In this document: one piece after another, positions 1 to 28,942 of the stretch
Numbering within the stretch: the stretch's first letter is position 1
Layout: each line of letters begins with the position of its first letter
IMG/VR virus record: IMGVR_UViG_3300019863_000052
Coordinates: 1 to 28,942 of that record
Reading direction: 5' to 3' (one strand)
Length of the DNA stretch: 28,942 nucleotides
Source: a virus
Notes under the pieces: model-generated
Told to the model about the DNA's origin: nothing
Database searches by the model: none
The model's input: only the letters and a program-made list of their open reading frames with translations
Position numbers and translations under genes: made by a program

Positions 1-520
1 CGAAGATTCATATATCCAAGATGAATTAAATAAAGAAGATAAAGATGTAGCTACTTTAAGCAAAGATAGTTTAAATACAGTAGATAACAAAACTACTAAC
101 TTTAGTAAGATAAACGATACTGTAAAAACTAATACAAATTCTGTTAATAATATTAATGGTTTTAATCCTAAAGAAGAGATTCCTAAGATTAAGACTAAAA
201 GATCTTTAGGTGATATAACTGGAACTATGATAGCTAAATCTAATGTAGATTCTGTTAAATCTAACAAAGAAACTCAGATACTGGGAGCTAACGGTAATAA
301 GATTCTAGAAGCTATTGCAGGAACTATGGTTAGTTCATTAGCTGTTCAAGAGAAAATGTTAGAACAACTAAATGGAATAAACCAAAGTAATTCTGATATA
401 GTAAGTAAAATAGATGTAGAAAAGAAAGATGTTCCAGCTAATCAGGTTAAAAACAAACCTGTTACTGAGCGTACAAATTTCCCTACTATGCCTGTGGACT
501 TAGCTAGAAAAGCATATTAA
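1..520 (+). CDS. C-terminal part of an unknown protein, 5' end cut by the window edge
   Basis: The reading frame is open from base 2, giving at least 172 residues before the stop at 518-520. The Met codon at 227 has no ribosome site in front and lies inside the open frame, so it is internal. The visible part is rich in Asn, Lys, Thr and Ser with few hydrophobic stretches. It includes a run of short polar segments (residues 1-65) and a weakly repeated I-x-GTM element (ITGTM, then IAGTM about 33 residues later) before a helical stretch with AVQEKMLEQLNGI. It ends DLARKAY and is followed directly by a palindromic terminator. No family recognised; the composition would fit a flexible virion or scaffold-type protein, but that is a guess. 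Confidence 0.75.
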   Translation, partial: EDSYIQDELNKEDKDVATLSKDSLNTVDNKTTNFSKINDTVKTNTNSVNNINGFNPKEEIPKIKTKRSLGDITGTMIAKSNVDSVKSNKETQILGANGNKILEAIAGTMVSSLAVQEKMLEQLNGINQSNSDIVSKIDVEKKDVPANQVKNKPVTERTNFPTMPVDLARKAY

Positions 521-521
521 G

Positions 522-555
522 ATATAGAGTATAGGGATATCCCTATACTCTATAT
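522..555. terminator. 34-base perfect palindrome, two-way terminator between convergent genes
   Basis: The sequence is self-complementary with no spacer, with core TATAGGGATATCCCTATA. It starts just after the rightward partial gene and overlaps the last stop-codon base of the leftward gene at 555-1235. AT-rich flanks supply short U-runs on both sides. It shares its TATAGGGAT core with the palindrome at 9552-9585. Confidence 0.75.
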
Positions 556-1235
556 TATTTTATGTGTTCTATACAAGCTTTTTTATAGCTGTTTAAAGTA
601 ATACTTACATTAGATATTACTCCTAATGGTAATGTATTATATCCTCTACTCTTATTCTTTCTAGATATACCATTTATTTTAGTTTCTAAATCGAATAACT
701 CTGTTTCTAACTCATACTTTCTTTCTACTAAGATAGTATTAAAACAACTTGTATCCATAAAGTTTATTGGTTCATTTAACATATAGTTTATATCGGAATA
801 AGTTTCCCATATATCGTTATAAGTATTTATCAATGTAGTAGCTTTATCGTAAGCTAAATTATAAGCATTAAGTTTTTGAGATAAATTACCATCTGAAACT
901 ATAGTTAAATTTGATTTAACCAATTCCATTTCTGTAACTAAGAATATTTCATTATTAATATTAACTGGATAAAACTTTGTTAATGAATCTATTTTCTTAA
1001 ATGGTAATAAATAATCATATCTATCATCTTGATCTATTACTGGTAAATTAGAATCTATAATAAGTATATTCTCGCAATCCTCTATAGATATACTTTTAGC
1101 ATATTTCTTTAAATATTTTAAAATATCCTTTTCTCTATTACCAGCTATACTTTCTAAACTTTCTCCTGTGTTAGCATTATAAATATCTATAACATTATTA
1201 GTAGCTTTAGCTATATCGAATATACTCTTCGCCAT
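555..1235 (-). CDS. Unknown protein, 226 residues
   Basis: The start at 1235 is supported by a strong ribosome site (AAGAAGGAG) 5-6 bases upstream. The protein is soluble-looking, without signal peptide or membrane segment. The N-terminus (MAKSIFDIAKATNNVIDIYN) is probably helical, residues 35-60 are rich in Lys and Ile, and a Glu-rich helical stretch (VERKYELETELFDLETKI) lies near residues 170-187. It is the last gene of the leftward cluster but is separated from the gene before it by the terminator at 1282-1307, so it needs read-through or a promoter in the roughly 27 bases before its start. It ends inside the palindrome at 522-555. No family recognised. Confidence 0.85.
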   Translation of the reverse strand: MAKSIFDIAKATNNVIDIYNANTGESLESIAGNREKDILKYLKKYAKSISIEDCENILIIDSNLPVIDQDDRYDYLLPFKKIDSLTKFYPVNINNEIFLVTEMELVKSNLTIVSDGNLSQKLNAYNLAYDKATTLINTYNDIWETYSDINYMLNEPINFMDTSCFNTILVERKYELETELFDLETKINGISRKNKSRGYNTLPLGVISNVSITLNSYKKACIEHIK

Positions 1236-1281
1236 TATTTCTCCTTCTTATTTGTTAATCATAAAAAAGAAAAAAGAAACT

Positions 1282-1307
1282 CTAGCAGTACCTATAGGTA
1301 CTGCTAG
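1282..1307 (-). terminator. 26-base palindrome with U-tract, leftward terminator
   Basis: CTAGCAGTACCTA followed directly by its reverse complement, lying immediately after the stop of the leftward gene 1308-1928. On the transcribed strand it is followed by a long T-rich tract (AGTTTCTTTTTTCTTTTTT, down to about 1263). Unlike the other palindromes it lies between two genes of the same direction, so it may attenuate expression of 555-1235. Confidence 0.8.
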
Positions 1308-1928
1308 CTATGGTAAGGTTAAAACTGTTGCACTTTTTTGTCCATGAAATGGATCTGTTTCGTTACATTGTCTATTACTATAAATAAGGTTCCAAATATC
1401 ATTGTCTGTTACCTTAGTGGTTTTATACATATTTAAAACAGAATGTAAAACTTTTAAATATAGATTTGATTTAGTATGGTAGTTTCTTTTACTTACCTCT
1501 ACACCAAATTCTTTAGAAGAAATATCTTTATAGCTAACAAATTTAGTATCTTTATTTAAATCTGTAAATAGTTTTCTAAGTTCTATATCTGACTCTATTT
1601 TAGTTATTACCATATATGTTAATGCAGCACCATAATTCTTTAAACTATATCTAGTTTTTGGTATAGTAGATATATCTTCTTTAGTTAACTTATACTTAGT
1701 AAGTAGTCTAGTAGGATAATTCTTAATAGTTAAATTATCCATAGCCACTCTTAAAGATATCATATCGCCAAACATAGTAGGAAACTTTTTAGTATATCCT
1801 AAAGATAACATTTTACCTAACTTATCATTTACATCACTAATGTTAACTATAGGGAAAGTATCTGTTTCTTTAATTCTCTTAAGAGGATAATTACTTAAGT
1901 TGTTTATTATAGTTTTATTTATTTTCAT
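1308..1928 (-). CDS. Unknown protein, 206 residues
   Basis: The start at 1928 overlaps the end of the upstream gene by 14 bases. The ribosome site (TGAGGTAAAG) lies inside that gene, so translation is probably coupled. The protein is basic and mixed alpha/beta in look, without signal peptide or membrane segment. It contains an LGYTKKFPTMFGDMISLRVA stretch near residues 43-62 and ends in a short polar tail (NETDPFHGQKSATVLTLP). It belongs to a tight group with 1915-2334 and 2324-2767 and is followed by a strong terminator, so it closes that transcription unit. No family recognised. Confidence 0.85.
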   Translation of the reverse strand: MKINKTIINNLSNYPLKRIKETDTFPIVNISDVNDKLGKMLSLGYTKKFPTMFGDMISLRVAMDNLTIKNYPTRLLTKYKLTKEDISTIPKTRYSLKNYGAALTYMVITKIESDIELRKLFTDLNKDTKFVSYKDISSKEFGVEVSKRNYHTKSNLYLKVLHSVLNMYKTTKVTDNDIWNLIYSNRQCNETDPFHGQKSATVLTLP

Positions 1929-2334
1929 GCGACTTTACCTCATTGAGTAATGTTAAGATATCATTAGAGAAAATATCCATAATCAATACTAGATTAGTTA
2001 CTCTATTAAATTTCTCTTCTAGTTCTATCTCTATGTTATTATCATCTGACCAAGTCTTTAAGTCTTTAAGTGTGTCTTCTGATATGAAAGTTTCTTCCAC
2101 TTCTAGTATTTTACACTTTATATCAAAGAACATAACTAGGTCAGGTAATAAAGCTTGAACTGTTTCTTTGTTATCTTTATCTACCTCCATATCCATCTCT
2201 TTGAAACTCTTTAAGATAGCGTGTGTTTTAATAGTAATAATTTCATTTATGACTAATGTCATTTCATTTTTACCATACTTAACTATCATATCTTTAAAAA
2301 TACTTAATAATTTATTTGTATTATTATTTTCCAT
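1915..2334 (-). CDS. Unknown acidic helical protein, 139 residues
   Basis: The start at 2334 overlaps the preceding gene by 11 bases and uses GAGG inside its end. The protein looks almost wholly helical and acidic. A Lys-rich first helix (residues 6-20) is followed by a Glu/Asp-rich middle (EEKF and similar near residues 105-109) and a hydrophobic C-terminal helix (LVLIMDIFSNDILTLL, 115-130). No membrane anchor is evident. It is co-transcribed with its neighbours on both sides. No family recognised; size and helical content would suit a small phage regulatory or binding protein, but nothing proves that. Confidence 0.85.
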   Translation of the reverse strand: MENNNTNKLLSIFKDMIVKYGKNEMTLVINEIITIKTHAILKSFKEMDMEVDKDNKETVQALLPDLVMFFDIKCKILEVEETFISEDTLKDLKTWSDDNNIEIELEEKFNRVTNLVLIMDIFSNDILTLLNEVKSHENK

Positions 2335-2767
2335 TGTTATTTTCCTCTACTTCTTTATTTAATATATCTACTATATCTTCAGTAACTTCTTCCCCAAATC
2401 CATCTGTAGATACTGTATGCGTTGAAGTTCTATTATTAGCATGTGTAAGGGTGATAGTGATATCTAATCTTTTTACATTTAAAACATTGAATAATAAATC
2501 TACTAATGTCTTAACTGTCATGTTAGTAGCAGTAACTCTATTCACTACAGCTGACCTTAATGTACTCACAGTTACTTTAGAAGCATCTTCTTTATCTTTA
2601 ACTAACTTTGATATCTCTTTATTAACATGTCCGTTAATAAGATGCATAAGAGCTTTATCTAAGTTATTCTCTTTTATAGCTTTACGCCATAGTAAGGCTA
2701 ACAGACCGCCTTCTGACCTAGCTACACTAAACTTATTGACATCTATTTTGTTTGTCTTTGTTGCCAT
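2324..2767 (-). CDS. Unknown protein, 147 residues
   Basis: The start at 2767 follows an AAAGGA ribosome site. It is the first gene of a three-gene overlapping group running left to 1308. The N-terminal half is helical and basic (SEGGLLALLWRKAIKENNLD near residues 18-37). The middle is Val/Thr-rich (VTVSTLRSAVVNRVTATNMTV, roughly 65-85) and the tail is acidic (VEENNNGK end). The 82 bases upstream hold two copies of an ATAACCATA motif that may be promoter elements. No family recognised. Confidence 0.85.
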   Translation of the reverse strand: MATKTNKIDVNKFSVARSEGGLLALLWRKAIKENNLDKALMHLINGHVNKEISKLVKDKEDASKVTVSTLRSAVVNRVTATNMTVKTLVDLLFNVLNVKRLDITITLTHANNRTSTHTVSTDGFGEEVTEDIVDILNKEVEENNNGK

Positions 2768-2849
2768 TTTATTCCTTTTGTTACAGTTATTTAATCACTG
2801 TGGTTTATTTGCATAGTATGGTTATACTAGCTATTTTAATAATATATGG
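2768..2849 (-). promoter_or_regulatory. Leader of the three-gene cluster, with two ATAACCATA repeats
   Basis: Read leftward, the leader begins at the end of gene 2850-3320 with ATAACCATATATTA (2840-2853), followed 28 bases later by a second ATAACCATA (2817-2825). The long form recurs at 7996-8009 in front of another leftward operon. An A/T-rich stretch and an AAAGGA ribosome site follow. Promoter role is inferred from repetition and position only. Confidence 0.4.
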
Positions 2850-3320
2850 TTATGGTAATTTACAATATTCTTCATATAGTTTATTTACTATACTAGTTAT
2901 GTTATTTATGTGGGGTCTAAGCTTATTACCATTAGCTCCTATTTTAGGATGGTGTAATCCTTTTATTAATACTTGTTCTAACAAAATAAGTTCTCTAGCT
3001 CGTTCTAACCATCTAAGTATATCATCATTACTAGTAAGATAACCATTATTAGATAACCAATACCTTAACTTTATATTTACATTATTATGTAAGCTTATTG
3101 TAGGTATGTCTAAATACTCTACAGTTACCTTACTTATATCAAAATCAGATAATGAAATATAATGTTCAACTATATTATTTTTTGGTGTATTTATGTATAT
3201 ATTTTTAGTTCTTAATGTTTCAATCTTATTTACATTTTCTTTAAGTATATCAATTTTATCTATACTTGTAAGTTCTTTATTAAAAAAGTCATTATATTTT
3301 TTAATTAGAAAATCAAACAT
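2850..3320 (-). CDS. Unknown protein, 156 residues
   Basis: The start at 3320 has a clear AAAGGAG ribosome site. The protein begins with a basic helical stretch (MFDFLIKKYNDFFNKEL). A beta-looking middle (residues 43-85) follows, then a helical end with a Trp/Arg-rich element (DILRWLERARELILLEQVLI near 100-119) and a Gly/Asn turn (GANGNKLR). There is no signal peptide or membrane segment. It is divergent from 3407-3850 and separated by 82 bases from the next leftward gene, which has its own candidate promoter. No family recognised. Confidence 0.85.
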   Translation of the reverse strand: MFDFLIKKYNDFFNKELTSIDKIDILKENVNKIETLRTKNIYINTPKNNIVEHYISLSDFDISKVTVEYLDIPTISLHNNVNIKLRYWLSNNGYLTSNDDILRWLERARELILLEQVLIKGLHHPKIGANGNKLRPHINNITSIVNKLYEEYCKLP

Positions 3321-3375
3321 ATTTCTCCTTTCAGTATCTTATATCAAATATACAATCCATATGGAAGTTTTACTG

Positions 3376-3394
3376 TTTAATTGATAAATTTAAA
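3376..3394 (+). promoter_or_regulatory. Candidate promoter motif TTTAATTGATAAATTTAAA
   Basis: It lies about 12 bases before the start of 3407-3850, in the 86-base divergent gap. A near copy (ATTAATTGAATAATTTAAAT, 10491-10510 on the minus strand) stands at a similar distance from 9588-10475. No good host -35/-10 pair is evident, so a phage-specific element is more likely. Confidence 0.35.
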
Positions 3395-3406
3395 CAGGAG
3401 ATACAA

Positions 3407-3850
3407 ATGAGTGATATAGTAGAAATTAATACTGATTTAGAAGATGATTCAATAAGTGTATTTACAGATGAAGATCAGGATACATTAGACTTTACACAGA
3501 ATATGCGTAAGAACTTAGTACTAAATATGACTAAAGAAAAACTACCTAAAGATATAGGTAGTGTTAGAGTTCTTAATGAACTATTAGGAAGTATGGATGG
3601 TCAAGTTACAGATAAAACTAAAATTAAACTTAATGCTAATAAAAATGCTGATGATAGTAAGCATAAAGAAGCTATGTTATCTGCGTTAACTAATATAGAT
3701 AGAGAAACTGGTAAAGCTAGAACTGGTAGTCTAGAACTAGAAGATGAATATATACCTTTAGACTTAGTTCCTGGAGAAACATCTACTAATAAAATAGAGT
3801 TAGATTACGAGGAAATAATGGATGCTTTAGTTATAGATGATGAAGATTAG
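3407..3850 (+). CDS. Unknown strongly acidic protein, 147 residues
   Basis: The start has an AGGAG ribosome site 7 bases upstream. About a quarter of the residues are Asp or Glu, concentrated at both ends: the N-terminus to residue 25 and the last 40 residues, finishing IDDED. A Lys-rich, probably helical middle (residues 70-90, TDKTKIKLNANKNADDSKHK) is followed by a hydrophobic helix. It is first in a rightward operon with a probable virion protein (12 bases downstream) and RuvC. Acidic proteins of this size next to structural genes are common in large phages, but no specific family is recognised. Confidence 0.85.
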   Translation: MSDIVEINTDLEDDSISVFTDEDQDTLDFTQNMRKNLVLNMTKEKLPKDIGSVRVLNELLGSMDGQVTDKTKIKLNANKNADDSKHKEAMLSALTNIDRETGKARTGSLELEDEYIPLDLVPGETSTNKIELDYEEIMDALVIDDED

Positions 3851-3862
3851 AAAGGATATATA

Positions 3863-4681
3863 ATGTTATTAACATCACAAAGAACAATGTATGCTAGTAA
3901 ATTAGATTTATGTCAAAAATTTAATGTACCTTATGTTATAAATAGTAATACTACTCTTAATGAGAAGTTTGATATAGAAATAGATAAAGAACTACCTAAT
4001 GATACTTATCCTTATTTACAATACATGGCTATTGGTACGGGCGGTGTATTTCTAAATGATAGTTTAGATGGATTAAACATATCTAAACACGGACCTATGG
4101 ATGGTGCGTTGTTTGAACATATACCATTTATCATAAGAGAACCTGATAAAGATTTAGTTCCAGCTCAGAGAGAAAAATATAGGCTTCGTAAAGAAGAAGT
4201 TATAAATGGAGTTCCATACATTTGTTATTATCTTAAAGAGTTAGATAATATAAGAGTTGAAGATAACTTCTATTCAGTAAGTACTGTGAATGAAAGATCC
4301 TCTATGGCGTTATATAATACTAATAACTCTAAGATACTTAATCCAGAACCTAGACACACTATGAAAGACCATATAGATGTAGAGAGTAACTCATACGCAG
4401 CTATCGTAGCTAAGGTAGATGTAAGTCTATCTGACGATGAGTTAGAAGAGATAAATCAAAATATGATTATTATGTATGGTGAAGATAATACTAAATACTT
4501 AAGTGAGATAGCTTTATGTAGTGGATTAGATATAACTACAGAAGAGGGTTATTTAGAAACTATATGTTCGCAAACTATGTTTTTTGTAGATATTGAATTT
4601 AAAGTGTCTGATTCCTTAAAGAATAATGTAGCTTTTAATAAAGCTATAGAGTTAAGTGGTATGGAACCAGATGTATTATGA
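3863..4681 (+). CDS. Probable phage virion (structural) protein, 272 residues
   Basis: The start is preceded by AAAGGA. The core shows an aromatic/glycine segment YLQYMAIGTGG (residues 51-61), then ALFEHIPFIIREPDKDL (82-98), then a basic YRLRKEE element and an aromatic ICYYLKELD. From memory, this order (Y-x-IG-x-GG, LF-x-x-IPF, DL, YRLR, YYLK) is shared by a conserved structural protein of large myoviruses, possibly tail or baseplate, but I cannot confirm the name. The C-terminal third is acidic. Its stop overlaps the RuvC start (ATGA), so the two are translationally coupled. The protein is soluble with no signal peptide. Confidence 0.7.
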   Translation: MLLTSQRTMYASKLDLCQKFNVPYVINSNTTLNEKFDIEIDKELPNDTYPYLQYMAIGTGGVFLNDSLDGLNISKHGPMDGALFEHIPFIIREPDKDLVPAQREKYRLRKEEVINGVPYICYYLKELDNIRVEDNFYSVSTVNERSSMALYNTNNSKILNPEPRHTMKDHIDVESNSYAAIVAKVDVSLSDDELEEINQNMIIMYGEDNTKYLSEIALCSGLDITTEEGYLETICSQTMFFVDIEFKVSDSLKNNVAFNKAIELSGMEPDVL

Positions 4682-5241
4682 TGGATAAGAAAAATACTAT
4701 AAACATTTTAAGTATAGATCCAGGTGCTAACTGCGGAGTTACTATCTTTACTATCAATATACATACTTTAGAAATAGTTGGTATAGAAAGCATATTATTA
4801 TTGTTAAATAATTATGTTAATAAAGATGATACTAAAGATAACATGAATTTTAGATTAAAAGTATTACATAAAAGAATAGTGGGTATTGTTAAGGAATATG
4901 ATATAAGGTTACTAGCTATAGAGAATGCTTTCTTGAATAGTAGATTTCCTAAAGCCGTAATGCAACTATCACAATATATAAGCACTATAGAGTTAGCCTG
5001 TAATGAAGTGAATAAATTTATTAGGATATATAAATACCAACCTACTGTTATTAAAAAACGAATAGGTGCTGGAGGAGGAGCTAACAAAGATGGAATGACT
5101 TCAGCTATAAATAGTATAAAAGATATCACTAAATTTGTAAATCCTTTAAATATGACGGAACATCAAGTAGATTCCATAGCTATAGGTTATTTAGCTATAA
5201 CAGATATCAGAGATAATCCAGCTATATTGATTTTACTATAA
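4678..5241 (+). CDS. RuvC-like Holliday junction resolvase, 187 residues
   Basis: The RNase H-fold nuclease signature is clear: SIDPGANCGVTIF places the first catalytic Asp at D14, AIENAF gives Glu at E82, and the C-terminal EHQVDSIAIGYLA gives H162 and D165, matching the HxxDAxA element of RuvC. A Lys/Gly-rich KKRIGAGGGANKDG stretch (126-138) corresponds to the DNA-contact region. The length is normal for RuvC. In phages such enzymes resolve branched DNA before packaging. The start overlaps the previous gene by 4 bases (ATGA); a second Met codon follows at once, so the exact start may be 4678 or 4681. A two-way terminator follows the stop. Confidence 0.88.
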   Translation: MMDKKNTINILSIDPGANCGVTIFTINIHTLEIVGIESILLLLNNYVNKDDTKDNMNFRLKVLHKRIVGIVKEYDIRLLAIENAFLNSRFPKAVMQLSQYISTIELACNEVNKFIRIYKYQPTVIKKRIGAGGGANKDGMTSAINSIKDITKFVNPLNMTEHQVDSIAIGYLAITDIRDNPAILILL

Positions 5242-5257
5242 AGAAAAAAGAAACTTA

Positions 5258-5287
5258 AGATACTGTACTCCTAGGAGTACAGTATCT
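5258..5287. terminator. 30-base perfect palindrome, two-way terminator
   Basis: AGATACTGTACTCCT followed directly by its reverse complement, between convergent RuvC and the small frameshifted gene; it overlaps the latter's last two bases. On the leftward strand it is followed by a T-rich run (AAGTTTCTTTTTTCTTT), so it should work best for that direction. Confidence 0.78.
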
Positions 5288-5554
5288 ATATTTCATGATT
5301 TAAACCAATGTAATAAGCAGTAACTAAAAGACTGTCTCTTTCTCTTGATTTAATATTTAAACTATGACTATCACCAAAGCAATCTATTTCTAAATTACCT
5401 GCTTTAGTTTAATAAATTTACAAAATCCTGCACCTAATACTTTCTTAGCATTTAAAGCTTGAACCATATCTTTATGAGAATTAGTAGATGGAAATACTAG
5501 TACTTCCTCTCCACCGTTATCTTCATAAACTATATACTTTAACTTTTCTAACAT
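5286..5554 (-). pseudogene. Small conserved-looking phage gene broken by a single-base frameshift
   Basis: An ATG at 5554, overlapping the end of the dUTPase gene by 7 bases, opens 54 codons (MLEKLKYIVYEDNGGEEVLV and on) to a stop at 5390-5392. In the -1 frame the protein continues from about 5408 as KAGNLEIDCFGDSHSL, ending GLNHEI at 5286. Adding one A to the AAA at 5408-5411 (minus strand) would give a single protein of about 89 residues with the join FCKFIK-TKAGNLEI. The style (VFP near the start, GFCKF in the middle, CFGDSHSL then SR) recalls a small phage protein family seen from memory. No good slippery heptamer is present. It may be a true mutation or a homopolymer error; the mirrored arm has the same lesion. 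Confidence 0.72.
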
Positions 5555-6780
5555 ATATACTCGTTTTCTACATGCTCTATCTCATTTAGGTCTATATCAT
5601 AAGCATCATCTTCTTGGTCAAACATAGTTACATAAATATCATGTTCATCACACTTGATACTAGATACTGTACCTACCCATTCGTTAGAATCGCCATTTTG
5701 TTTAGATATAAATCTATTATTTAATTTACTATATTTTATAACCTCTATTATCTTATGTATATCATACTTAGAAGTATATTCTTTGTAAGAGTCTTTAGAT
5801 ACAACATTAGGATTTATAAAGTTATATATTTCTTTCATTTCGTTATAAAGATTTACATTGAACTTATTATCCACTGTAAGTAACTCTATCATAATTAAAT
5901 TATCTTCTAATCCAAACCATGTCTTAACATACTCACCGCTAGAGTAACCAAAATCTTGTCTAAATTTATTTAGTACTTGTTTACCTCTATATAAATTATA
6001 TAAAGGTGTTATGTCTTCACCATATAATTTGTTATGTAAAGTAAAGAAGCTTTCTACTAATCTTTTAGTAGTTCTTTCTTTTATAACTGAATCATATTCT
6101 TTTAACTCTTCTTCGTAAGATACGGATACTAGTTTCTTAGAAGCTTTGATTATCTCTGCAACACTATTTGTTTGCATTTTACTTTCGCCAATAGAGAACA
6201 TAACAGAAAGTATTAAGCTAGTAGCTTTTCCTATATTACCTTTACAATCTATAAGTACTTGAGCCATTACGAAATGCCATGCATCTACTAGCTCTACATG
6301 TAGATTAACGATATCATGCTCTTTATGTATATCTTTCCAATGTTTCCAGTTTAGAGAGTCTATAAGCTCATTCACTTCCATACCTATACATAGTTTAAAA
6401 TCTATGAACCTATTTTTGTTAGTTATTCCCTCTAACCATTGTTTACCATTAGTATCATAATTTAATTCAGATTGTAGAGTTAACATTTCAGTTATGTGTT
6501 CTGTAACTGTTTCTAGATTTAGTTTATCTGAATAGATACAGACATCTATAATAGTTTTGTTAGTATATTTAACTTTGTAATCTTCTAGGTACGCTAGTAT
6601 TTTACCTAACTCTTCTTCATCTTCTTTAGATAAATTAACTTTTAACATATACTCATTAAGTATACCCTCTAAATCTCTAGCCATAATGAAGCTAGTATCT
6701 TTTTTATTTAATATAATCTCGCCAATTTCTAGATCTCTACTTAACATTGTAGCTAATTCTAACATTTTATTTTTACTCAT
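5548..6780 (-). CDS. Dimeric all-alpha dUTPase (dUTP diphosphatase) with N- and C-terminal extensions, 410 residues
   Basis: Hydrolyses dUTP to dUMP and pyrophosphate, keeping uracil out of DNA and supplying dTMP synthesis. The metal-binding pairs are visible: GMEVNELIDS gives E135 and E138, VELVDAWHF gives E163 and D166, with WKHWK between them. Downstream, GKQVLNKFRQDFGY (266-279) and KTWFGLEDN (286-294) complete the family pattern. From memory this matches the Campylobacter jejuni dUTPase closely. The family is usually about 230-270 residues, so residues 1-90 (helical, acidic) and about 325-410 (ending in a beta-like NEWVGTVSSI part and acidic tail) are extra. The ribosome site is AAGGATAAG. 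The HD gene ends 12 bases upstream. dCTPase activity cannot be excluded. Confidence 0.88.
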   Translation of the reverse strand: MSKNKMLELATMLSRDLEIGEIILNKKDTSFIMARDLEGILNEYMLKVNLSKEDEEELGKILAYLEDYKVKYTNKTIIDVCIYSDKLNLETVTEHITEMLTLQSELNYDTNGKQWLEGITNKNRFIDFKLCIGMEVNELIDSLNWKHWKDIHKEHDIVNLHVELVDAWHFVMAQVLIDCKGNIGKATSLILSVMFSIGESKMQTNSVAEIIKASKKLVSVSYEEELKEYDSVIKERTTKRLVESFFTLHNKLYGEDITPLYNLYRGKQVLNKFRQDFGYSSGEYVKTWFGLEDNLIMIELLTVDNKFNVNLYNEMKEIYNFINPNVVSKDSYKEYTSKYDIHKIIEVIKYSKLNNRFISKQNGDSNEWVGTVSSIKCDEHDIYVTMFDQEDDAYDIDLNEIEHVENEYIC

Positions 6781-6791
6781 AACACTTATCC

Positions 6792-7442
6792 TTATTTTAG
6801 TTTACTTTTTATTATTTTATTTACTTCGCCAAGTGTTAAGTTATCTATATCTGCATATAGTTTTTCTAACTCTCCACCTTTCCATTTTATATACAGGTCA
6901 GGGTATTTAACATATCCTACTCTACCGAACTTTTCATGCATATGTTTATATACATCAAACACCACTTCATCGTGTTTCTTTATATCTATGCTAGGCGTAA
7001 GAGGATATTTAGCTTTATTGATATTAAATAGATAACTTCTAACTACCATATCTTCTAAATTTATATTACCTCTATCTGCACTAGCTAGTATTTCTGATAA
7101 CAATGAATAATAACTTCCTTTATGACTAGCTCTATGCTCCCTTACAGCCATAGCTATATCTAATCTATCTCTTTGTTCTATATTTTCAAAAAATATATCA
7201 GAAGAATTCATGGCGTAGTTATACGCTAAAGTGTGATGATTATCTCTATCAACATTACTGAACATATCATGAATATAAACAGCTAATAAAAGATGTTCTT
7301 TATTAACATCTAATTTTAGATCATCTACTATAGTTAAAGCATTATCAGCTACTTCTCTAATATGTAATATATCGTGAGCTTTATCTGTATGTTGATAACA
7401 ATGACCATATGTCTTTTCTAAGCTTTGTTTAAAACATAACAT
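6792..7442 (-). CDS. HD-domain phosphohydrolase, 216 residues
   Basis: The metal-binding pattern of the HD superfamily is seen in order: H27 (DILHIREVA), H58-D59 (AVYIHDMF), H103 (VREHRASH) and D122 (ASADRG). Extra His residues near 69-70 may help bind metal or substrate. Such proteins remove phosphate or pyrophosphate from nucleotides or cyclic nucleotides; the substrate cannot be read from the sequence. It lies between an unknown gene (4-base gap upstream) and dUTPase (12-base gap downstream), so a role in nucleotide pools is the natural guess. Destruction of a signalling nucleotide is a second possibility. The ribosome site is weak, which suggests coupling to the gene upstream. Confidence 0.82.
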   Translation of the reverse strand: MLCFKQSLEKTYGHCYQHTDKAHDILHIREVADNALTIVDDLKLDVNKEHLLLAVYIHDMFSNVDRDNHHTLAYNYAMNSSDIFFENIEQRDRLDIAMAVREHRASHKGSYYSLLSEILASADRGNINLEDMVVRSYLFNINKAKYPLTPSIDIKKHDEVVFDVYKHMHEKFGRVGYVKYPDLYIKWKGGELEKLYADIDNLTLGEVNKIIKSKLK

Positions 7443-7446
7443 CTTA

Positions 7447-7935
7447 TTAATCCAACTTAAAGATTATACTAGATTTATCTAAATAAGAATCTAAATACTT
7501 TGCTCTATTGAAGGCTCTATCAAACTTAGTTCTAGATACCTTTTCAACTTCCATAGGTCCTTCTTTTAAAGTAAGATTAAAATACTCATTATCTTTTGTT
7601 TTAATCATACTCATATCACCTGTTGATATTAATAAACAAGGAGTTAACTTATTTATAACATTAAGACCAAAAAACTGATATCCTACTTCATCATTAAACC
7701 AGACTACTTTCCATAGTTCATTATTGTCATCTAAGAATACTATGGTATTATCTACAAACCCTATAGATCTTATTTTTGCACCATGAGTAAAGCTATGCTT
7801 CATTTTAGAAGTATAGATAATTAATTCTCTTCTTTCGTCACAATCACTAGCGATAACTACCTTGTTATTTATTTTAATAACTTCTTTTTCAACTATACTT
7901 TTATTATCTTTATGATACTCTATTGCTATTTTCAT
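7447..7935 (-). CDS. Unknown protein, 162 residues, first gene of the dUTPase operon
   Basis: The start at 7935 has a strong TAAGGAG ribosome site. The protein looks mostly beta: alternating hydrophobic stretches at residues 1-35, an aromatic IVFLDDNNELWKVVWFND part near 68-85, and LTPCLLISTGDMSMI near 98-112. The last 30 residues are basic and helical. No signal peptide or membrane segment. It leads the leftward operon with the HD protein and dUTPase, and its 5' leader contains a small hairpin and a candidate promoter. No family recognised. Confidence 0.85.
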   Translation of the reverse strand: MKIAIEYHKDNKSIVEKEVIKINNKVVIASDCDERRELIIYTSKMKHSFTHGAKIRSIGFVDNTIVFLDDNNELWKVVWFNDEVGYQFFGLNVINKLTPCLLISTGDMSMIKTKDNEYFNLTLKEGPMEVEKVSRTKFDRAFNRAKYLDSYLDKSSIIFKLD

Positions 7936-7957
7936 TTTGTTCTCCTTACTTTACTTA

Positions 7958-7973
7958 GTTTCAATACTGAAAC
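7958..7973 (-). promoter_or_regulatory. Small hairpin in the 5' leader of the dUTPase operon
   Basis: GTTTCA and TGAAAC flank a 4-base loop, 22 bases upstream of the start of 7447-7935 and downstream of the candidate promoter motif. It could be a leader hairpin or a repressor site; a chance stem of 6 bp in AT-rich DNA is also possible. Confidence 0.3.
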
Positions 7974-7984
7974 AACATAACTAC

Positions 7985-7994
7985 TTACATTAAA
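7985..7994 (-). promoter_or_regulatory. Candidate phage promoter motif TTTAATGTAA (leftward)
   Basis: One of three copies in the unique half, all in divergent gaps and pointing toward a gene start. This one is followed by GTAGTTAT, closely matching GTAATTAT after the copy at 10556-10565. It is preceded one base away by the ATAACCATATATTA element (7996-8009). Confidence 0.45.
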
Positions 7995-7995
7995 T

Positions 7996-20933: not shown

Positions 20934-20947
20934 ATAACCATATATTA
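20934..20947 (+). promoter_or_regulatory. ATAACCATATATTA element, mirrored copy
   Basis: Mirror of 7996-8009; the same 14 bases occur at 26090-26103 in this arm. Confidence 0.33.
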
Positions 20948-20948
20948 A

Positions 20949-20958
20949 TTTAATGTAA
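20949..20958 (+). promoter_or_regulatory. TTTAATGTAA motif, mirrored copy (dUTPase operon)
   Basis: Mirror of 7985-7994, followed by GTAGTTAT and 49 bases before the start of 21008-21496. Confidence 0.42.
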
Positions 20959-20969
20959 GTAGTTATGTT

Positions 20970-20985
20970 GTTTCAGTATTGAAAC
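20970..20985 (+). promoter_or_regulatory. Small leader hairpin, mirrored copy
   Basis: Mirror of 7958-7973: GTTTCA, 4-base loop, TGAAAC, upstream of 21008-21496. Confidence 0.28.
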
Positions 20986-21007
20986 TAAGTAAAGTAAGGA
21001 GAACAAA

Positions 21008-21496
21008 ATGAAAATAGCAATAGAGTATCATAAAGATAATAAAAGTATAGTTGAAAAAGAAGTTATTAAAATAAATAACAAGGTAGTTATCGCTAGTGAT
21101 TGTGACGAAAGAAGAGAATTAATTATCTATACTTCTAAAATGAAGCATAGCTTTACTCATGGTGCAAAAATAAGATCTATAGGGTTTGTAGATAATACCA
21201 TAGTATTCTTAGATGACAATAATGAACTATGGAAAGTAGTCTGGTTTAATGATGAAGTAGGATATCAGTTTTTTGGTCTTAATGTTATAAATAAGTTAAC
21301 TCCTTGTTTATTAATATCAACAGGTGATATGAGTATGATTAAAACAAAAGATAATGAGTATTTTAATCTTACTTTAAAAGAAGGACCTATGGAAGTTGAA
21401 AAGGTATCTAGAACTAAGTTTGATAGAGCCTTCAATAGAGCAAAGTATTTAGATTCTTATTTAGATAAATCTAGTATAATCTTTAAGTTGGATTAA
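21008..21496 (+). CDS. Unknown protein, 162 residues, mirrored copy
   Basis: Identical to 7447-7935, with the TAAGGAG ribosome site. Beta-rich with a basic helical end; first gene of the mirrored dUTPase operon. Confidence 0.8.
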   Translation: MKIAIEYHKDNKSIVEKEVIKINNKVVIASDCDERRELIIYTSKMKHSFTHGAKIRSIGFVDNTIVFLDDNNELWKVVWFNDEVGYQFFGLNVINKLTPCLLISTGDMSMIKTKDNEYFNLTLKEGPMEVEKVSRTKFDRAFNRAKYLDSYLDKSSIIFKLD

Positions 21497-21500
21497 TAAG

Positions 21501-22151
21501 ATGTTATGTTTTAAACAAAGCTTAGAAAAGACATATGGTCATTGTTATCAACATACAGATAAAGCTCACGATATATTACATATTAGAGAAGTAGCTGATA
21601 ATGCTTTAACTATAGTAGATGATCTAAAATTAGATGTTAATAAAGAACATCTTTTATTAGCTGTTTATATTCATGATATGTTCAGTAATGTTGATAGAGA
21701 TAATCATCACACTTTAGCGTATAACTACGCCATGAATTCTTCTGATATATTTTTTGAAAATATAGAACAAAGAGATAGATTAGATATAGCTATGGCTGTA
21801 AGGGAGCATAGAGCTAGTCATAAAGGAAGTTATTATTCATTGTTATCAGAAATACTAGCTAGTGCAGATAGAGGTAATATAAATTTAGAAGATATGGTAG
21901 TTAGAAGTTATCTATTTAATATCAATAAAGCTAAATATCCTCTTACGCCTAGCATAGATATAAAGAAACACGATGAAGTGGTGTTTGATGTATATAAACA
22001 TATGCATGAAAAGTTCGGTAGAGTAGGATATGTTAAATACCCTGACCTGTATATAAAATGGAAAGGTGGAGAGTTAGAAAAACTATATGCAGATATAGAT
22101 AACTTAACACTTGGCGAAGTAAATAAAATAATAAAAAGTAAACTAAAATAA
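21501..22151 (+). CDS. HD-domain phosphohydrolase, mirrored copy
   Basis: Identical to 6792-7442. HD-superfamily residues H27, H58-D59, H103 and D122 are present; substrate unknown, nucleotide-pool role inferred from the dUTPase gene next to it. Confidence 0.78.
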   Translation: MLCFKQSLEKTYGHCYQHTDKAHDILHIREVADNALTIVDDLKLDVNKEHLLLAVYIHDMFSNVDRDNHHTLAYNYAMNSSDIFFENIEQRDRLDIAMAVREHRASHKGSYYSLLSEILASADRGNINLEDMVVRSYLFNINKAKYPLTPSIDIKKHDEVVFDVYKHMHEKFGRVGYVKYPDLYIKWKGGELEKLYADIDNLTLGEVNKIIKSKLK

Positions 22152-22162
22152 GGATAAGTGTT

Positions 22163-23395
22163 ATGAGTAAAAATAAAATGTTAGAATTAGCTACAATGTT
22201 AAGTAGAGATCTAGAAATTGGCGAGATTATATTAAATAAAAAAGATACTAGCTTCATTATGGCTAGAGATTTAGAGGGTATACTTAATGAGTATATGTTA
22301 AAAGTTAATTTATCTAAAGAAGATGAAGAAGAGTTAGGTAAAATACTAGCGTACCTAGAAGATTACAAAGTTAAATATACTAACAAAACTATTATAGATG
22401 TCTGTATCTATTCAGATAAACTAAATCTAGAAACAGTTACAGAACACATAACTGAAATGTTAACTCTACAATCTGAATTAAATTATGATACTAATGGTAA
22501 ACAATGGTTAGAGGGAATAACTAACAAAAATAGGTTCATAGATTTTAAACTATGTATAGGTATGGAAGTGAATGAGCTTATAGACTCTCTAAACTGGAAA
22601 CATTGGAAAGATATACATAAAGAGCATGATATCGTTAATCTACATGTAGAGCTAGTAGATGCATGGCATTTCGTAATGGCTCAAGTACTTATAGATTGTA
22701 AAGGTAATATAGGAAAAGCTACTAGCTTAATACTTTCTGTTATGTTCTCTATTGGCGAAAGTAAAATGCAAACAAATAGTGTTGCAGAGATAATCAAAGC
22801 TTCTAAGAAACTAGTATCCGTATCTTACGAAGAAGAGTTAAAAGAATATGATTCAGTTATAAAAGAAAGAACTACTAAAAGATTAGTAGAAAGCTTCTTT
22901 ACTTTACATAACAAATTATATGGTGAAGACATAACACCTTTATATAATTTATATAGAGGTAAACAAGTACTAAATAAATTTAGACAAGATTTTGGTTACT
23001 CTAGCGGTGAGTATGTTAAGACATGGTTTGGATTAGAAGATAATTTAATTATGATAGAGTTACTTACAGTGGATAATAAGTTCAATGTAAATCTTTATAA
23101 CGAAATGAAAGAAATATATAACTTTATAAATCCTAATGTTGTATCTAAAGACTCTTACAAAGAATATACTTCTAAGTATGATATACATAAGATAATAGAG
23201 GTTATAAAATATAGTAAATTAAATAATAGATTTATATCTAAACAAAATGGCGATTCTAACGAATGGGTAGGTACAGTATCTAGTATCAAGTGTGATGAAC
23301 ATGATATTTATGTAACTATGTTTGACCAAGAAGATGATGCTTATGATATAGACCTAAATGAGATAGAGCATGTAGAAAACGAGTATATATGTTAG
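22163..23395 (+). CDS. Dimeric all-alpha dUTPase with extensions, mirrored copy
   Basis: Identical to 5548-6780: metal ligands E135, E138, E163 and D166 and the KQVLNKFRQDFGY element, with extra N- and C-terminal parts. Confidence 0.84.
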   Translation: MSKNKMLELATMLSRDLEIGEIILNKKDTSFIMARDLEGILNEYMLKVNLSKEDEEELGKILAYLEDYKVKYTNKTIIDVCIYSDKLNLETVTEHITEMLTLQSELNYDTNGKQWLEGITNKNRFIDFKLCIGMEVNELIDSLNWKHWKDIHKEHDIVNLHVELVDAWHFVMAQVLIDCKGNIGKATSLILSVMFSIGESKMQTNSVAEIIKASKKLVSVSYEEELKEYDSVIKERTTKRLVESFFTLHNKLYGEDITPLYNLYRGKQVLNKFRQDFGYSSGEYVKTWFGLEDNLIMIELLTVDNKFNVNLYNEMKEIYNFINPNVVSKDSYKEYTSKYDIHKIIEVIKYSKLNNRFISKQNGDSNEWVGTVSSIKCDEHDIYVTMFDQEDDAYDIDLNEIEHVENEYIC

Positions 23396-23657
23396 AAAAG
23401 TTAAAGTATATAGTTTATGAAGATAACGGTGGAGAGGAAGTACTAGTATTTCCATCTACTAATTCTCATAAAGATATGGTTCAAGCTTTAAATGCTAAGA
23501 AAGTATTAGGTGCAGGATTTTGTAAATTTATTAAACTAAAGCAGGTAATTTAGAAATAGATTGCTTTGGTGATAGTCATAGTTTAAATATTAAATCAAGA
23601 GAAAGAGACAGTCTTTTAGTTACTGCTTATTACATTGGTTTAAATCATGAAATATAG
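23389..23657 (+). pseudogene. Frameshifted small phage gene, mirrored copy
   Basis: Carries the same lesion as 5286-5554: 54 codons from the ATG at 23389 to the stop at 23551-23553, with the conserved-looking second half in the -1 frame from about 23535 to the stop at 23655-23657. The shared lesion shows that the two arms were copied after it arose. Confidence 0.7.
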
Positions 23658-23685
23658 ATACTGTACTCCTAGGAGTACAGTATCT
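23656..23685. terminator. 30-base palindromic terminator, mirrored copy
   Basis: Mirror of 5258-5287, followed rightward by a T-rich tract (23688-23704). Confidence 0.75.
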
Positions 23686-23701
23686 TAAGTTTCTTTTTTC
23701 T

Positions 23702-24265
23702 TTATAGTAAAATCAATATAGCTGGATTATCTCTGATATCTGTTATAGCTAAATAACCTATAGCTATGGAATCTACTTGATGTTCCGTCATATTTAAAGG
23801 ATTTACAAATTTAGTGATATCTTTTATACTATTTATAGCTGAAGTCATTCCATCTTTGTTAGCTCCTCCTCCAGCACCTATTCGTTTTTTAATAACAGTA
23901 GGTTGGTATTTATATATCCTAATAAATTTATTCACTTCATTACAGGCTAACTCTATAGTGCTTATATATTGTGATAGTTGCATTACGGCTTTAGGAAATC
24001 TACTATTCAAGAAAGCATTCTCTATAGCTAGTAACCTTATATCATATTCCTTAACAATACCCACTATTCTTTTATGTAATACTTTTAATCTAAAATTCAT
24101 GTTATCTTTAGTATCATCTTTATTAACATAATTATTTAACAATAATAATATGCTTTCTATACCAACTATTTCTAAAGTATGTATATTGATAGTAAAGATA
24201 GTAACTCCGCAGTTAGCACCTGGATCTATACTTAAAATGTTTATAGTATTTTTCTTATCCATCAT
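23702..24265 (-). CDS. RuvC-like Holliday junction resolvase, mirrored copy
   Basis: Identical to 4678-5241, with D14, E82, H162 and D165 as the catalytic set. The start overlaps the structural gene by 4 bases. Confidence 0.84.
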   Translation of the reverse strand: MMDKKNTINILSIDPGANCGVTIFTINIHTLEIVGIESILLLLNNYVNKDDTKDNMNFRLKVLHKRIVGIVKEYDIRLLAIENAFLNSRFPKAVMQLSQYISTIELACNEVNKFIRIYKYQPTVIKKRIGAGGGANKDGMTSAINSIKDITKFVNPLNMTEHQVDSIAIGYLAITDIRDNPAILILL

Positions 24266-25080
24266 AATACATCTGGTTCCATACCACTTAACTCTATAGC
24301 TTTATTAAAAGCTACATTATTCTTTAAGGAATCAGACACTTTAAATTCAATATCTACAAAAAACATAGTTTGCGAACATATAGTTTCTAAATAACCCTCT
24401 TCTGTAGTTATATCTAATCCACTACATAAAGCTATCTCACTTAAGTATTTAGTATTATCTTCACCATACATAATAATCATATTTTGATTTATCTCTTCTA
24501 ACTCATCGTCAGATAGACTTACATCTACCTTAGCTACGATAGCTGCGTATGAGTTACTCTCTACATCTATATGGTCTTTCATAGTGTGTCTAGGTTCTGG
24601 ATTAAGTATCTTAGAGTTATTAGTATTATATAACGCCATAGAGGATCTTTCATTCACAGTACTTACTGAATAGAAGTTATCTTCAACTCTTATATTATCT
24701 AACTCTTTAAGATAATAACAAATGTATGGAACTCCATTTATAACTTCTTCTTTACGAAGCCTATATTTTTCTCTCTGAGCTGGAACTAAATCTTTATCAG
24801 GTTCTCTTATGATAAATGGTATATGTTCAAACAACGCACCATCCATAGGTCCGTGTTTAGATATGTTTAATCCATCTAAACTATCATTTAGAAATACACC
24901 GCCCGTACCAATAGCCATGTATTGTAAATAAGGATAAGTATCATTAGGTAGTTCTTTATCTATTTCTATATCAAACTTCTCATTAAGAGTAGTATTACTA
25001 TTTATAACATAAGGTACATTAAATTTTTGACATAAATCTAATTTACTAGCATACATTGTTCTTTGTGATGTTAATAACAT
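24262..25080 (-). CDS. Probable phage virion protein, 272 residues, mirrored copy
   Basis: Identical to 3863-4681, with the YLQYMAIGTGG, ALFEHIPF and YRLR elements in the same order. Confidence 0.66.
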   Translation of the reverse strand: MLLTSQRTMYASKLDLCQKFNVPYVINSNTTLNEKFDIEIDKELPNDTYPYLQYMAIGTGGVFLNDSLDGLNISKHGPMDGALFEHIPFIIREPDKDLVPAQREKYRLRKEEVINGVPYICYYLKELDNIRVEDNFYSVSTVNERSSMALYNTNNSKILNPEPRHTMKDHIDVESNSYAAIVAKVDVSLSDDELEEINQNMIIMYGEDNTKYLSEIALCSGLDITTEEGYLETICSQTMFFVDIEFKVSDSLKNNVAFNKAIELSGMEPDVL

Positions 25081-25092
25081 TATATATCCTTT

Positions 25093-25536
25093 CTAATCTT
25101 CATCATCTATAACTAAAGCATCCATTATTTCCTCGTAATCTAACTCTATTTTATTAGTAGATGTTTCTCCAGGAACTAAGTCTAAAGGTATATATTCATC
25201 TTCTAGTTCTAGACTACCAGTTCTAGCTTTACCAGTTTCTCTATCTATATTAGTTAACGCAGATAACATAGCTTCTTTATGCTTACTATCATCAGCATTT
25301 TTATTAGCATTAAGTTTAATTTTAGTTTTATCTGTAACTTGACCATCCATACTTCCTAATAGTTCATTAAGAACTCTAACACTACCTATATCTTTAGGTA
25401 GTTTTTCTTTAGTCATATTTAGTACTAAGTTCTTACGCATATTCTGTGTAAAGTCTAATGTATCCTGATCTTCATCTGTAAATACACTTATTGAATCATC
25501 TTCTAAATCAGTATTAATTTCTACTATATCACTCAT
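25093..25536 (-). CDS. Unknown strongly acidic protein, 147 residues, mirrored copy
   Basis: Identical to 3407-3850: acidic ends and a Lys-rich middle; first gene of the operon with the virion protein and RuvC. Confidence 0.8.
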   Translation of the reverse strand: MSDIVEINTDLEDDSISVFTDEDQDTLDFTQNMRKNLVLNMTKEKLPKDIGSVRVLNELLGSMDGQVTDKTKIKLNANKNADDSKHKEAMLSALTNIDRETGKARTGSLELEDEYIPLDLVPGETSTNKIELDYEEIMDALVIDDED

Positions 25537-25548
25537 TTGTATCTCCTG

Positions 25549-25567
25549 TTTAAATTTATCAATTAAA
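25549..25567 (-). promoter_or_regulatory. TTTAATTGATAAATTTAAA motif, mirrored copy
   Basis: Mirror of 3376-3394, about 12 bases before the start of 25093-25536. Confidence 0.33.
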
Positions 25568-25622
25568 CAGTAAAACTTCCATATGGATTGTATATTTGAT
25601 ATAAGATACTGAAAGGAGAAAT

Positions 25623-26093
25623 ATGTTTGATTTTCTAATTAAAAAATATAATGACTTTTTTAATAAAGAACTTACAAGTATAGATAAAATTGATATACTT
25701 AAAGAAAATGTAAATAAGATTGAAACATTAAGAACTAAAAATATATACATAAATACACCAAAAAATAATATAGTTGAACATTATATTTCATTATCTGATT
25801 TTGATATAAGTAAGGTAACTGTAGAGTATTTAGACATACCTACAATAAGCTTACATAATAATGTAAATATAAAGTTAAGGTATTGGTTATCTAATAATGG
25901 TTATCTTACTAGTAATGATGATATACTTAGATGGTTAGAACGAGCTAGAGAACTTATTTTGTTAGAACAAGTATTAATAAAAGGATTACACCATCCTAAA
26001 ATAGGAGCTAATGGTAATAAGCTTAGACCCCACATAAATAACATAACTAGTATAGTAAATAAACTATATGAAGAATATTGTAAATTACCATAA
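25623..26093 (+). CDS. Unknown protein, 156 residues, mirrored copy
   Basis: Identical to 2850-3320, with the AAAGGAG ribosome site. Basic helical start, beta-looking middle, helical end. Confidence 0.8.
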   Translation: MFDFLIKKYNDFFNKELTSIDKIDILKENVNKIETLRTKNIYINTPKNNIVEHYISLSDFDISKVTVEYLDIPTISLHNNVNIKLRYWLSNNGYLTSNDDILRWLERARELILLEQVLIKGLHHPKIGANGNKLRPHINNITSIVNKLYEEYCKLP

Positions 26094-26175
26094 CCATATA
26101 TTATTAAAATAGCTAGTATAACCATACTATGCAAATAAACCACAGTGATTAAATAACTGTAACAAAAGGAATAAA
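26094..26175 (+). promoter_or_regulatory. Leader with ATAACCATA repeats, mirrored copy
   Basis: Mirror of 2768-2849; the repeats are at 26090-26098 and 26118-26126. Confidence 0.38.
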
Positions 26176-26619
26176 ATGGCAACAAAGACAAACAAAATAG
26201 ATGTCAATAAGTTTAGTGTAGCTAGGTCAGAAGGCGGTCTGTTAGCCTTACTATGGCGTAAAGCTATAAAAGAGAATAACTTAGATAAAGCTCTTATGCA
26301 TCTTATTAACGGACATGTTAATAAAGAGATATCAAAGTTAGTTAAAGATAAAGAAGATGCTTCTAAAGTAACTGTGAGTACATTAAGGTCAGCTGTAGTG
26401 AATAGAGTTACTGCTACTAACATGACAGTTAAGACATTAGTAGATTTATTATTCAATGTTTTAAATGTAAAAAGATTAGATATCACTATCACCCTTACAC
26501 ATGCTAATAATAGAACTTCAACGCATACAGTATCTACAGATGGATTTGGGGAAGAAGTTACTGAAGATATAGTAGATATATTAAATAAAGAAGTAGAGGA
26601 AAATAACAATGGAAAATAA
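26176..26619 (+). CDS. Unknown protein, 147 residues, mirrored copy
   Basis: Identical to 2324-2767. Helical basic N-terminus and acidic tail; overlaps the next gene by 11 bases. Confidence 0.8.
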   Translation: MATKTNKIDVNKFSVARSEGGLLALLWRKAIKENNLDKALMHLINGHVNKEISKLVKDKEDASKVTVSTLRSAVVNRVTATNMTVKTLVDLLFNVLNVKRLDITITLTHANNRTSTHTVSTDGFGEEVTEDIVDILNKEVEENNNGK

Positions 26620-27028
26620 TAATACAAATAAATTATTAAGTATTTTTAAAGATATGATAGTTAAGTATGGTAAAAATGAAATGACATTAGTCATAAATGA
26701 AATTATTACTATTAAAACACACGCTATCTTAAAGAGTTTCAAAGAGATGGATATGGAGGTAGATAAAGATAACAAAGAAACAGTTCAAGCTTTATTACCT
26801 GACCTAGTTATGTTCTTTGATATAAAGTGTAAAATACTAGAAGTGGAAGAAACTTTCATATCAGAAGACACACTTAAAGACTTAAAGACTTGGTCAGATG
26901 ATAATAACATAGAGATAGAACTAGAAGAGAAATTTAATAGAGTAACTAATCTAGTATTGATTATGGATATTTTCTCTAATGATATCTTAACATTACTCAA
27001 TGAGGTAAAGTCGCATGAAAATAAATAA
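26609..27028 (+). CDS. Unknown acidic helical protein, 139 residues, mirrored copy
   Basis: Identical to 1915-2334; overlaps its neighbours by 11 and 14 bases. Confidence 0.8.
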   Translation: MENNNTNKLLSIFKDMIVKYGKNEMTLVINEIITIKTHAILKSFKEMDMEVDKDNKETVQALLPDLVMFFDIKCKILEVEETFISEDTLKDLKTWSDDNNIEIELEEKFNRVTNLVLIMDIFSNDILTLLNEVKSHENK

Positions 27029-27635
27029 AACTATAATAAACAACTTAAGTAATTATCCTCTTAAGAGAATTAAAGAAACAGATACTTTCCCTATAGTTAA
27101 CATTAGTGATGTAAATGATAAGTTAGGTAAAATGTTATCTTTAGGATATACTAAAAAGTTTCCTACTATGTTTGGCGATATGATATCTTTAAGAGTGGCT
27201 ATGGATAATTTAACTATTAAGAATTATCCTACTAGACTACTTACTAAGTATAAGTTAACTAAAGAAGATATATCTACTATACCAAAAACTAGATATAGTT
27301 TAAAGAATTATGGTGCTGCATTAACATATATGGTAATAACTAAAATAGAGTCAGATATAGAACTTAGAAAACTATTTACAGATTTAAATAAAGATACTAA
27401 ATTTGTTAGCTATAAAGATATTTCTTCTAAAGAATTTGGTGTAGAGGTAAGTAAAAGAAACTACCATACTAAATCAAATCTATATTTAAAAGTTTTACAT
27501 TCTGTTTTAAATATGTATAAAACCACTAAGGTAACAGACAATGATATTTGGAACCTTATTTATAGTAATAGACAATGTAACGAAACAGATCCATTTCATG
27601 GACAAAAAAGTGCAACAGTTTTAACCTTACCATAG
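27015..27635 (+). CDS. Unknown protein, 206 residues, mirrored copy
   Basis: Identical to 1308-1928; its stop touches the terminator at 27636-27661. Confidence 0.8.
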   Translation: MKINKTIINNLSNYPLKRIKETDTFPIVNISDVNDKLGKMLSLGYTKKFPTMFGDMISLRVAMDNLTIKNYPTRLLTKYKLTKEDISTIPKTRYSLKNYGAALTYMVITKIESDIELRKLFTDLNKDTKFVSYKDISSKEFGVEVSKRNYHTKSNLYLKVLHSVLNMYKTTKVTDNDIWNLIYSNRQCNETDPFHGQKSATVLTLP

Positions 27636-27661
27636 CTAGCAGTACCTATAGGTACTGCTAG
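27636..27661 (+). terminator. 26-base palindrome with T-tract, mirrored copy
   Basis: Mirror of 1282-1307, followed by AGTTTCTTTTTTCTTTTTT up to about 27680. Confidence 0.77.
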
Positions 27662-27707
27662 AGTTTCTTTTTTCTTTTTTATGATTAACAAATAAGAAGG
27701 AGAAATA

Positions 27708-28388
27708 ATGGCGAAGAGTATATTCGATATAGCTAAAGCTACTAATAATGTTATAGATATTTATAATGCTAACACAGGAGAAAGTTTAGAAAGTATAGCT
27801 GGTAATAGAGAAAAGGATATTTTAAAATATTTAAAGAAATATGCTAAAAGTATATCTATAGAGGATTGCGAGAATATACTTATTATAGATTCTAATTTAC
27901 CAGTAATAGATCAAGATGATAGATATGATTATTTATTACCATTTAAGAAAATAGATTCATTAACAAAGTTTTATCCAGTTAATATTAATAATGAAATATT
28001 CTTAGTTACAGAAATGGAATTGGTTAAATCAAATTTAACTATAGTTTCAGATGGTAATTTATCTCAAAAACTTAATGCTTATAATTTAGCTTACGATAAA
28101 GCTACTACATTGATAAATACTTATAACGATATATGGGAAACTTATTCCGATATAAACTATATGTTAAATGAACCAATAAACTTTATGGATACAAGTTGTT
28201 TTAATACTATCTTAGTAGAAAGAAAGTATGAGTTAGAAACAGAGTTATTCGATTTAGAAACTAAAATAAATGGTATATCTAGAAAGAATAAGAGTAGAGG
28301 ATATAATACATTACCATTAGGAGTAATATCTAATGTAAGTATTACTTTAAACAGCTATAAAAAAGCTTGTATAGAACACATAAAATAA
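27708..28388 (+). CDS. Unknown protein, 226 residues, mirrored copy
   Basis: Identical to 555-1235, with the AAGAAGGAG ribosome site just upstream. The stop overlaps the palindrome at 28388-28421. Confidence 0.8.
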   Translation: MAKSIFDIAKATNNVIDIYNANTGESLESIAGNREKDILKYLKKYAKSISIEDCENILIIDSNLPVIDQDDRYDYLLPFKKIDSLTKFYPVNINNEIFLVTEMELVKSNLTIVSDGNLSQKLNAYNLAYDKATTLINTYNDIWETYSDINYMLNEPINFMDTSCFNTILVERKYELETELFDLETKINGISRKNKSRGYNTLPLGVISNVSITLNSYKKACIEHIK

Positions 28389-28421
28389 TATAGAGTATAG
28401 GGATATCCCTATACTCTATAT
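28388..28421. terminator. 34-base palindromic terminator, mirrored copy
   Basis: Mirror of 522-555, at the convergent junction near the right end. Confidence 0.72.
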
Positions 28422-28422
28422 C

Positions 28423-28942
28423 TTAATATGCTTTTCTAGCTAAGTCCACAGGCATAGTAGGGAAATTTGTACGCTCAGTAACAGGTTTGTTTTTAACCTG
28501 ATTAGCTGGAACATCTTTCTTTTCTACATCTATTTTACTTACTATATCAGAATTACTTTGGTTTATTCCATTTAGTTGTTCTAACATTTTCTCTTGAACA
28601 GCTAATGAACTAACCATAGTTCCTGCAATAGCTTCTAGAATCTTATTACCGTTAGCTCCCAGTATCTGAGTTTCTTTGTTAGATTTAACAGAATCTACAT
28701 TAGATTTAGCTATCATAGTTCCAGTTATATCACCTAAAGATCTTTTAGTCTTAATCTTAGGAATCTCTTCTTTAGGATTAAAACCATTAATATTATTAAC
28801 AGAATTTGTATTAGTTTTTACAGTATCGTTTATCTTACTAAAGTTAGTAGTTTTGTTATCTACTGTATTTAAACTATCTTTGCTTAAAGTAGCTACATCT
28901 TTATCTTCTTTATTTAATTCATCTTGGATATATGAATCTTCG
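28423..28942 (-). CDS. C-terminal part of an unknown protein, mirrored copy, cut by the right edge
   Basis: Identical to 1-520; the frame runs open to the last bases of the window, so its start lies outside. At least 172 residues, polar and Asn/Lys-rich. Confidence 0.72.
   Translation of the reverse strand, partial: EDSYIQDELNKEDKDVATLSKDSLNTVDNKTTNFSKINDTVKTNTNSVNNINGFNPKEEIPKIKTKRSLGDITGTMIAKSNVDSVKSNKETQILGANGNKILEAIAGTMVSSLAVQEKMLEQLNGINQSNSDIVSKIDVEKKDVPANQVKNKPVTERTNFPTMPVDLARKAY

Follow-up and report, generated by a model that had tools for sequence, protein, structure and literature searches.

Organization of the record

The window, that is, the whole stretch of DNA analyzed here, comprises 28,942 nucleotides and represents an entire virus record, not a section cut from a longer one. 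In a base-by-base comparison with its own reverse complement, 28,942 of 28,942 positions were identical (0 mismatches). The perfect 2 × 14,471-base palindrome described in the initial annotation was thus confirmed; differences between the arms in such a self-comparison had been named there as a refutation. The symmetry axis is located between positions 14471 and 14472 with a spacer of zero, and the second half mirrors the first exactly and contains no independent variation, as expected of a fold-back. Both ends of the record stop at the identical base inside the same open reading frame (ORF 2–520, open at the 5′ end), in line with the earlier remark that the arms end together inside a gene. 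A private frameshift, which had been listed as a further common feature of both arms, was not found; the arm-matching ORFs of three close relatives each stay in one frame. The longest perfect palindrome elsewhere in the arm (axis excluded) has a length of 34 bp, so the record-wide symmetry is far above chance. The two halves are described as follows:

1..14471, plus strand: arm 1, the sole unique sequence; phiKZ-like jumbo phage fragment as judged by its genes, 20 genes, 94% coding
14472..28942, minus strand: arm 2, the exact reverse complement of arm 1 with 0 mismatches; no independent information

Gene content of the arm

Several genes of the arm could be assigned to protein families:

4678..5241, plus strand: RuvC-like resolvase (phrog_159, PF02075)
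5548..6780, minus strand: MazG/dUTPase_2-like NTP pyrophosphohydrolase (PF08761, 8e-18; phrog_173)
8089..9543, plus strand: RNase H (phrog_3265, 6e-56)
10599..12041, plus strand: UvsX-like recombinase (phrog_97, 1e-29; 41–57% identity in the close clade)
13149..13814, plus strand: RNA polymerase beta-subunit-like protein (phrog_3233, 4e-66), used as the marker for finding relatives
13824..14438, plus strand: thymidylate kinase, tmk (PF02223, 5e-35; phrog_761, 9e-31), the last gene before the axis

The gene matches point to phiKZ-like jumbo phages (Chimalliviridae), whose core gene families and local gene order are both present in the arm. Several arm genes without database names are common to the closest IMG/VR clade. 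Neither an Rfam family nor a tRNA was detected in the record. Burkholderia phage FLC9 (321,833 bp) and Pseudomonas phage Psa21 (305,260 bp) share these gene families with the arm and arrange them alike, with RNase H followed by an opposite-strand gene, UvsX, small genes, and the RNA polymerase beta-like gene. Unlike the record, both genomes are complete, at about 300 kb, and run on past this block. The clade of the arm differs from both phages in being AT-richer and in its palindromic terminators, and in this record tmk follows the beta-like gene. Long relatives have lengths of about 218–325 kb and carry the same block in their interior; the 14.5-kb arm corresponds to a small part of such a genome. 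Judged by its predicted genes, each arm comes from a jumbo phage genome of the phiKZ-like (Chimalliviridae) type, of which it covers 14.5 kb.

Palindromic terminators and the axis site

Apart from the axis, four natural palindromes were identified in the arm:

522..555, no strand assigned: perfect palindrome of 34 bp, terminator-like, between convergent genes
1282..1307, minus strand: perfect palindrome of 26 bp, terminator-like
5258..5287, no strand assigned: perfect palindrome of 30 bp, terminator-like, between convergent genes
9552..9585, no strand assigned: near-perfect palindrome of 34 nt with a 2-nt center, terminator-like, between convergent genes

All four are located directly 3′ of stop codons and score as terminators, and three of the four lie between convergent genes. 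Two of the terminators have a 22-nt core in common (528–549, AGTATAGGGATATCCCTATACT, and 9558–9579, AGTATAGGGATGTCCCTATACT), while the gene ends next to them are unrelated. Unusually long perfect or near-perfect palindromes of 26–36 bp, apparently bidirectional terminators, were also observed in the AT-rich phiKZ-like clade (loci L018, L019, L020, and L099–L108). Perfect palindromes of at least 24 bp occurred in only 7 of 79 loci, most of which belong to this AT-rich clade.

Between the stop codon of tmk and the axis lie 33 nt. Although 94% of the arm is coding, the axis thus falls into a short gap after a stop codon, which is where the other palindromic terminators of this phage sit; a terminator is therefore expected at this position. 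The strand at the axis folds into one stem of 31 pairs, which is trivial for a palindrome. The site is described as follows:

14455..14488, no strand assigned: probable natural bidirectional terminator palindrome with a core of about 30–36 bp, TATACACACTATGGAATATTCCATAGTGTGTATA; its natural limits are not readable from the record

The axis region probably represents a natural bidirectional terminator palindrome.

The operon end in related phages

Relatives were found by an alignment-based scan with the beta-like protein, which yielded 80 loci, and by a clade-specific scan, which yielded 13 loci, ten of them new. A single-sequence scan with the same protein gave no matches, and no relatives were detected among the prokaryote genome contigs searched. 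In 11 of the 13 clade relatives, the corresponding operon, which extends to the RNA polymerase beta-like gene or slightly beyond it, has a palindromic hairpin of 30–36 nt at its end. Two of these relatives, L103 and L104, are nearly identical; they come from two samples with neighboring numbers (3300003872 and 3300003873) and agree in hairpin and continuation. In ten of the relatives (L018, L019, L020, L099, L101–L105, and L107), the hairpin is located within about 30 nt after the beta-like gene, measures 30–36 nt, and is either perfect or has a center of 1–6 nt. It is followed by a convergent minus-strand gene and not by a mirror copy. This gene belongs to phrog_3222 in L018 and L020, where a virion structural gene comes next; in L019 it is related to the gene at 6792–7442 of the arm. 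In the eleventh relative, L106, the beta-like gene is followed by two extra genes (compare tmk in this record), a perfect 36-bp palindrome, and then a convergent gene. No hairpin is present at that place in L100 or in the distant L108.

The DNA past the terminator differs from the mirror in all 11 hairpin-bearing relatives, an observation made in relatives and not in the record's own phage. An inverted 60-mer was present in 0 of 89 related loci (79 from the alignment-based scan and 10 further clade loci); 65 of the 79 reach at least 5 kb past the marker gene. With a hairpin, a convergent gene, and no mirror in these relatives, the axis appears to be an operon end of the usual kind, whose usual continuation is different DNA. 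The axis site lies at a terminator position, and we infer that, despite the insertion of tmk in this record, it is the equivalent of the operon end that carries a hairpin in the 11 relatives. A tmk directly after the beta-like gene is absent from all 13 clade loci, so the exact junction is not alignable to an intact copy. A tmk query recovered only one distant relative in the viral scan, and distant copies occur in two of seven related records. An exact search of viral contigs with the sequence on the inner side of the axis gave no match, in a set from which near-identical records may be omitted.

Origin of the palindrome

The record is very probably a technical fold-back, by an assembler turn or by hairpin self-priming, seeded by the natural terminator palindrome. 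The palindrome almost certainly stems from an error of sequencing or assembly at a natural terminator hairpin and is then not a biological structure. In the real molecule, uvsX would be followed by two small genes, the RNA polymerase beta-like gene, tmk, and the palindromic bidirectional terminator, beyond which a different convergent gene would be expected from the relatives. At a palindromic terminator, a sequence may be extended along its own complementary strand, and here the true continuation would have been exchanged for the reverse complement of the incoming arm. This could have occurred in two ways. Either the assembler walked back along its own reverse strand, triggered by a graph ambiguity at a palindrome at least about k long or by coverage stopping inside the second half of the palindrome, or, while the DNA was being amplified or the library prepared, a 3′ end within the hairpin folded back and acted as a primer for copying its own strand. 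We infer that one of these two routes was taken in this record.

Toy unitig walks were run on L099 and L019 sequences that had been truncated within the second half of the palindrome; at k = 21–31 (as far as k fits), they turned back and gave a symmetric, spacer-free product. When the sequence continued past the palindrome, a fork was obtained instead of a turn, and with k larger than the palindrome the walk went straight on; a turn requires k to be at most about the length of the palindrome. These walks show what can happen in such a model and are not a reconstruction of the assembler used. By turning back at the palindrome, the toy walk recreates the lack of mismatches and of a spacer as well as the position of the axis at a terminator, and the equal ends of the arms would follow from both arms being the same graph path. 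No turn occurred at the remaining perfect palindromes, which reach 34 bp in the arm, so an extra factor must single out the axis, for example the end of coverage, a greater palindrome length, or breakage of the molecule.

Three further explanations were considered. The first is a long-read artefact, in which a missed adaptor or a strand switch causes both strands of one molecule to be read as one, with the turn at a random molecule end. Missed SMRTbell adaptors do produce palindromic reads (PMC6218980). However, a random turn would hit coding sequence about 94% of the time, whereas the axis lies at a terminator position, which makes this origin very unlikely; were it true, the record would still be an artefact.

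Even less probable is that snap-back replication at the terminator hairpin gave rise, within cells, to a real inverted (head-to-head) duplication of this phage or to a defective subgenomic molecule of it. The hairpin is a plausible self-priming site, and the axis strand forms the 31-pair stem, trivial as this is for a palindrome, but such a molecule is absent from all relatives examined. Long perfect palindromes are usually unstable in bacteria, which also speaks against it as a matter of general knowledge, and arms ending at the same base need no biology, since a collapsed assembly graph yields them.

The least credible explanation is an N15-like linear phage genome with hairpin ends, in which the closed end was read through, the record then being a head-to-head dimer centered on a telomere. 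Reading through a closed hairpin results in a perfect, spacer-free palindrome, and the axis is indeed without a spacer. As a real structure (ALTERNATIVES), a hairpin-ended genome is nevertheless poorly supported, because the axis would then have to mark the end of a genome and a protelomerase would have to be present, but the arm is an interior 14.5-kb fragment whose block lies inside the contig in the long relatives, so that the axis is not a genome end there, and no ResT/TelK-type protelomerase (PF16684) was found in any of 16 records (this one and 15 related ones, several of which are fragments). The absence from this record alone is weak evidence, as the record is a fragment. The phiKZ-like phage Churi has moreover been reported to be circularly permuted and terminally redundant (PMC11849849).

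The explanation preferred in the initial annotation, a fold-back chimera or an assembly path that reverses at a palindrome, thus gains support from the axis lying at the natural place of a terminator and from the DNA of relatives continuing into other genes. The alternative of a real concatemer or a hairpin-ended genome fares poorly, as there is no mirror in relatives, the arm is small and interior, and a protelomerase is lacking. It had also been stated that the sequence alone cannot decide; the related sequences decide most of the question, not all of it. The suggested search for the arm continuing differently in related assemblies revealed other genes past the terminator in relatives, while the exact inner-axis sequence was unmatched in viral contigs.

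Comparison with known artefacts

The palindrome should not be read as a structure of the phage genome, and we suggest cutting the record at 14471 and keeping the 14.5-kb fragment. The record satisfies the inverted-terminal-repeat rule of CheckV (at least 20 bp; PMC8116208) and could on that basis pass for a closed genome. Mirror-image contigs of this kind may arise readily in phages whose terminators are long perfect palindromes. A literature search on palindromic contigs in metagenome assemblies revealed no direct case; two related kinds of artefact have been described. Palindromic chimeras arising from whole-genome amplification and from missed SMRTbell adaptors are documented (Pacasus; PMC6218980). 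As in this record, a sequence is followed by its own reverse complement, an arrangement missing from the source genome. Those chimeras are noisy reads, whereas a contig with identical arms is found here, with its turn at the place of a natural terminator palindrome. IMG/VR contigs holding one genome more than once, flagged by k-mer frequency, are considered probable assembly artefacts (CheckV; PMC8116208). They resemble the record in containing one sequence twice per contig, but in this record the second copy is inverted.
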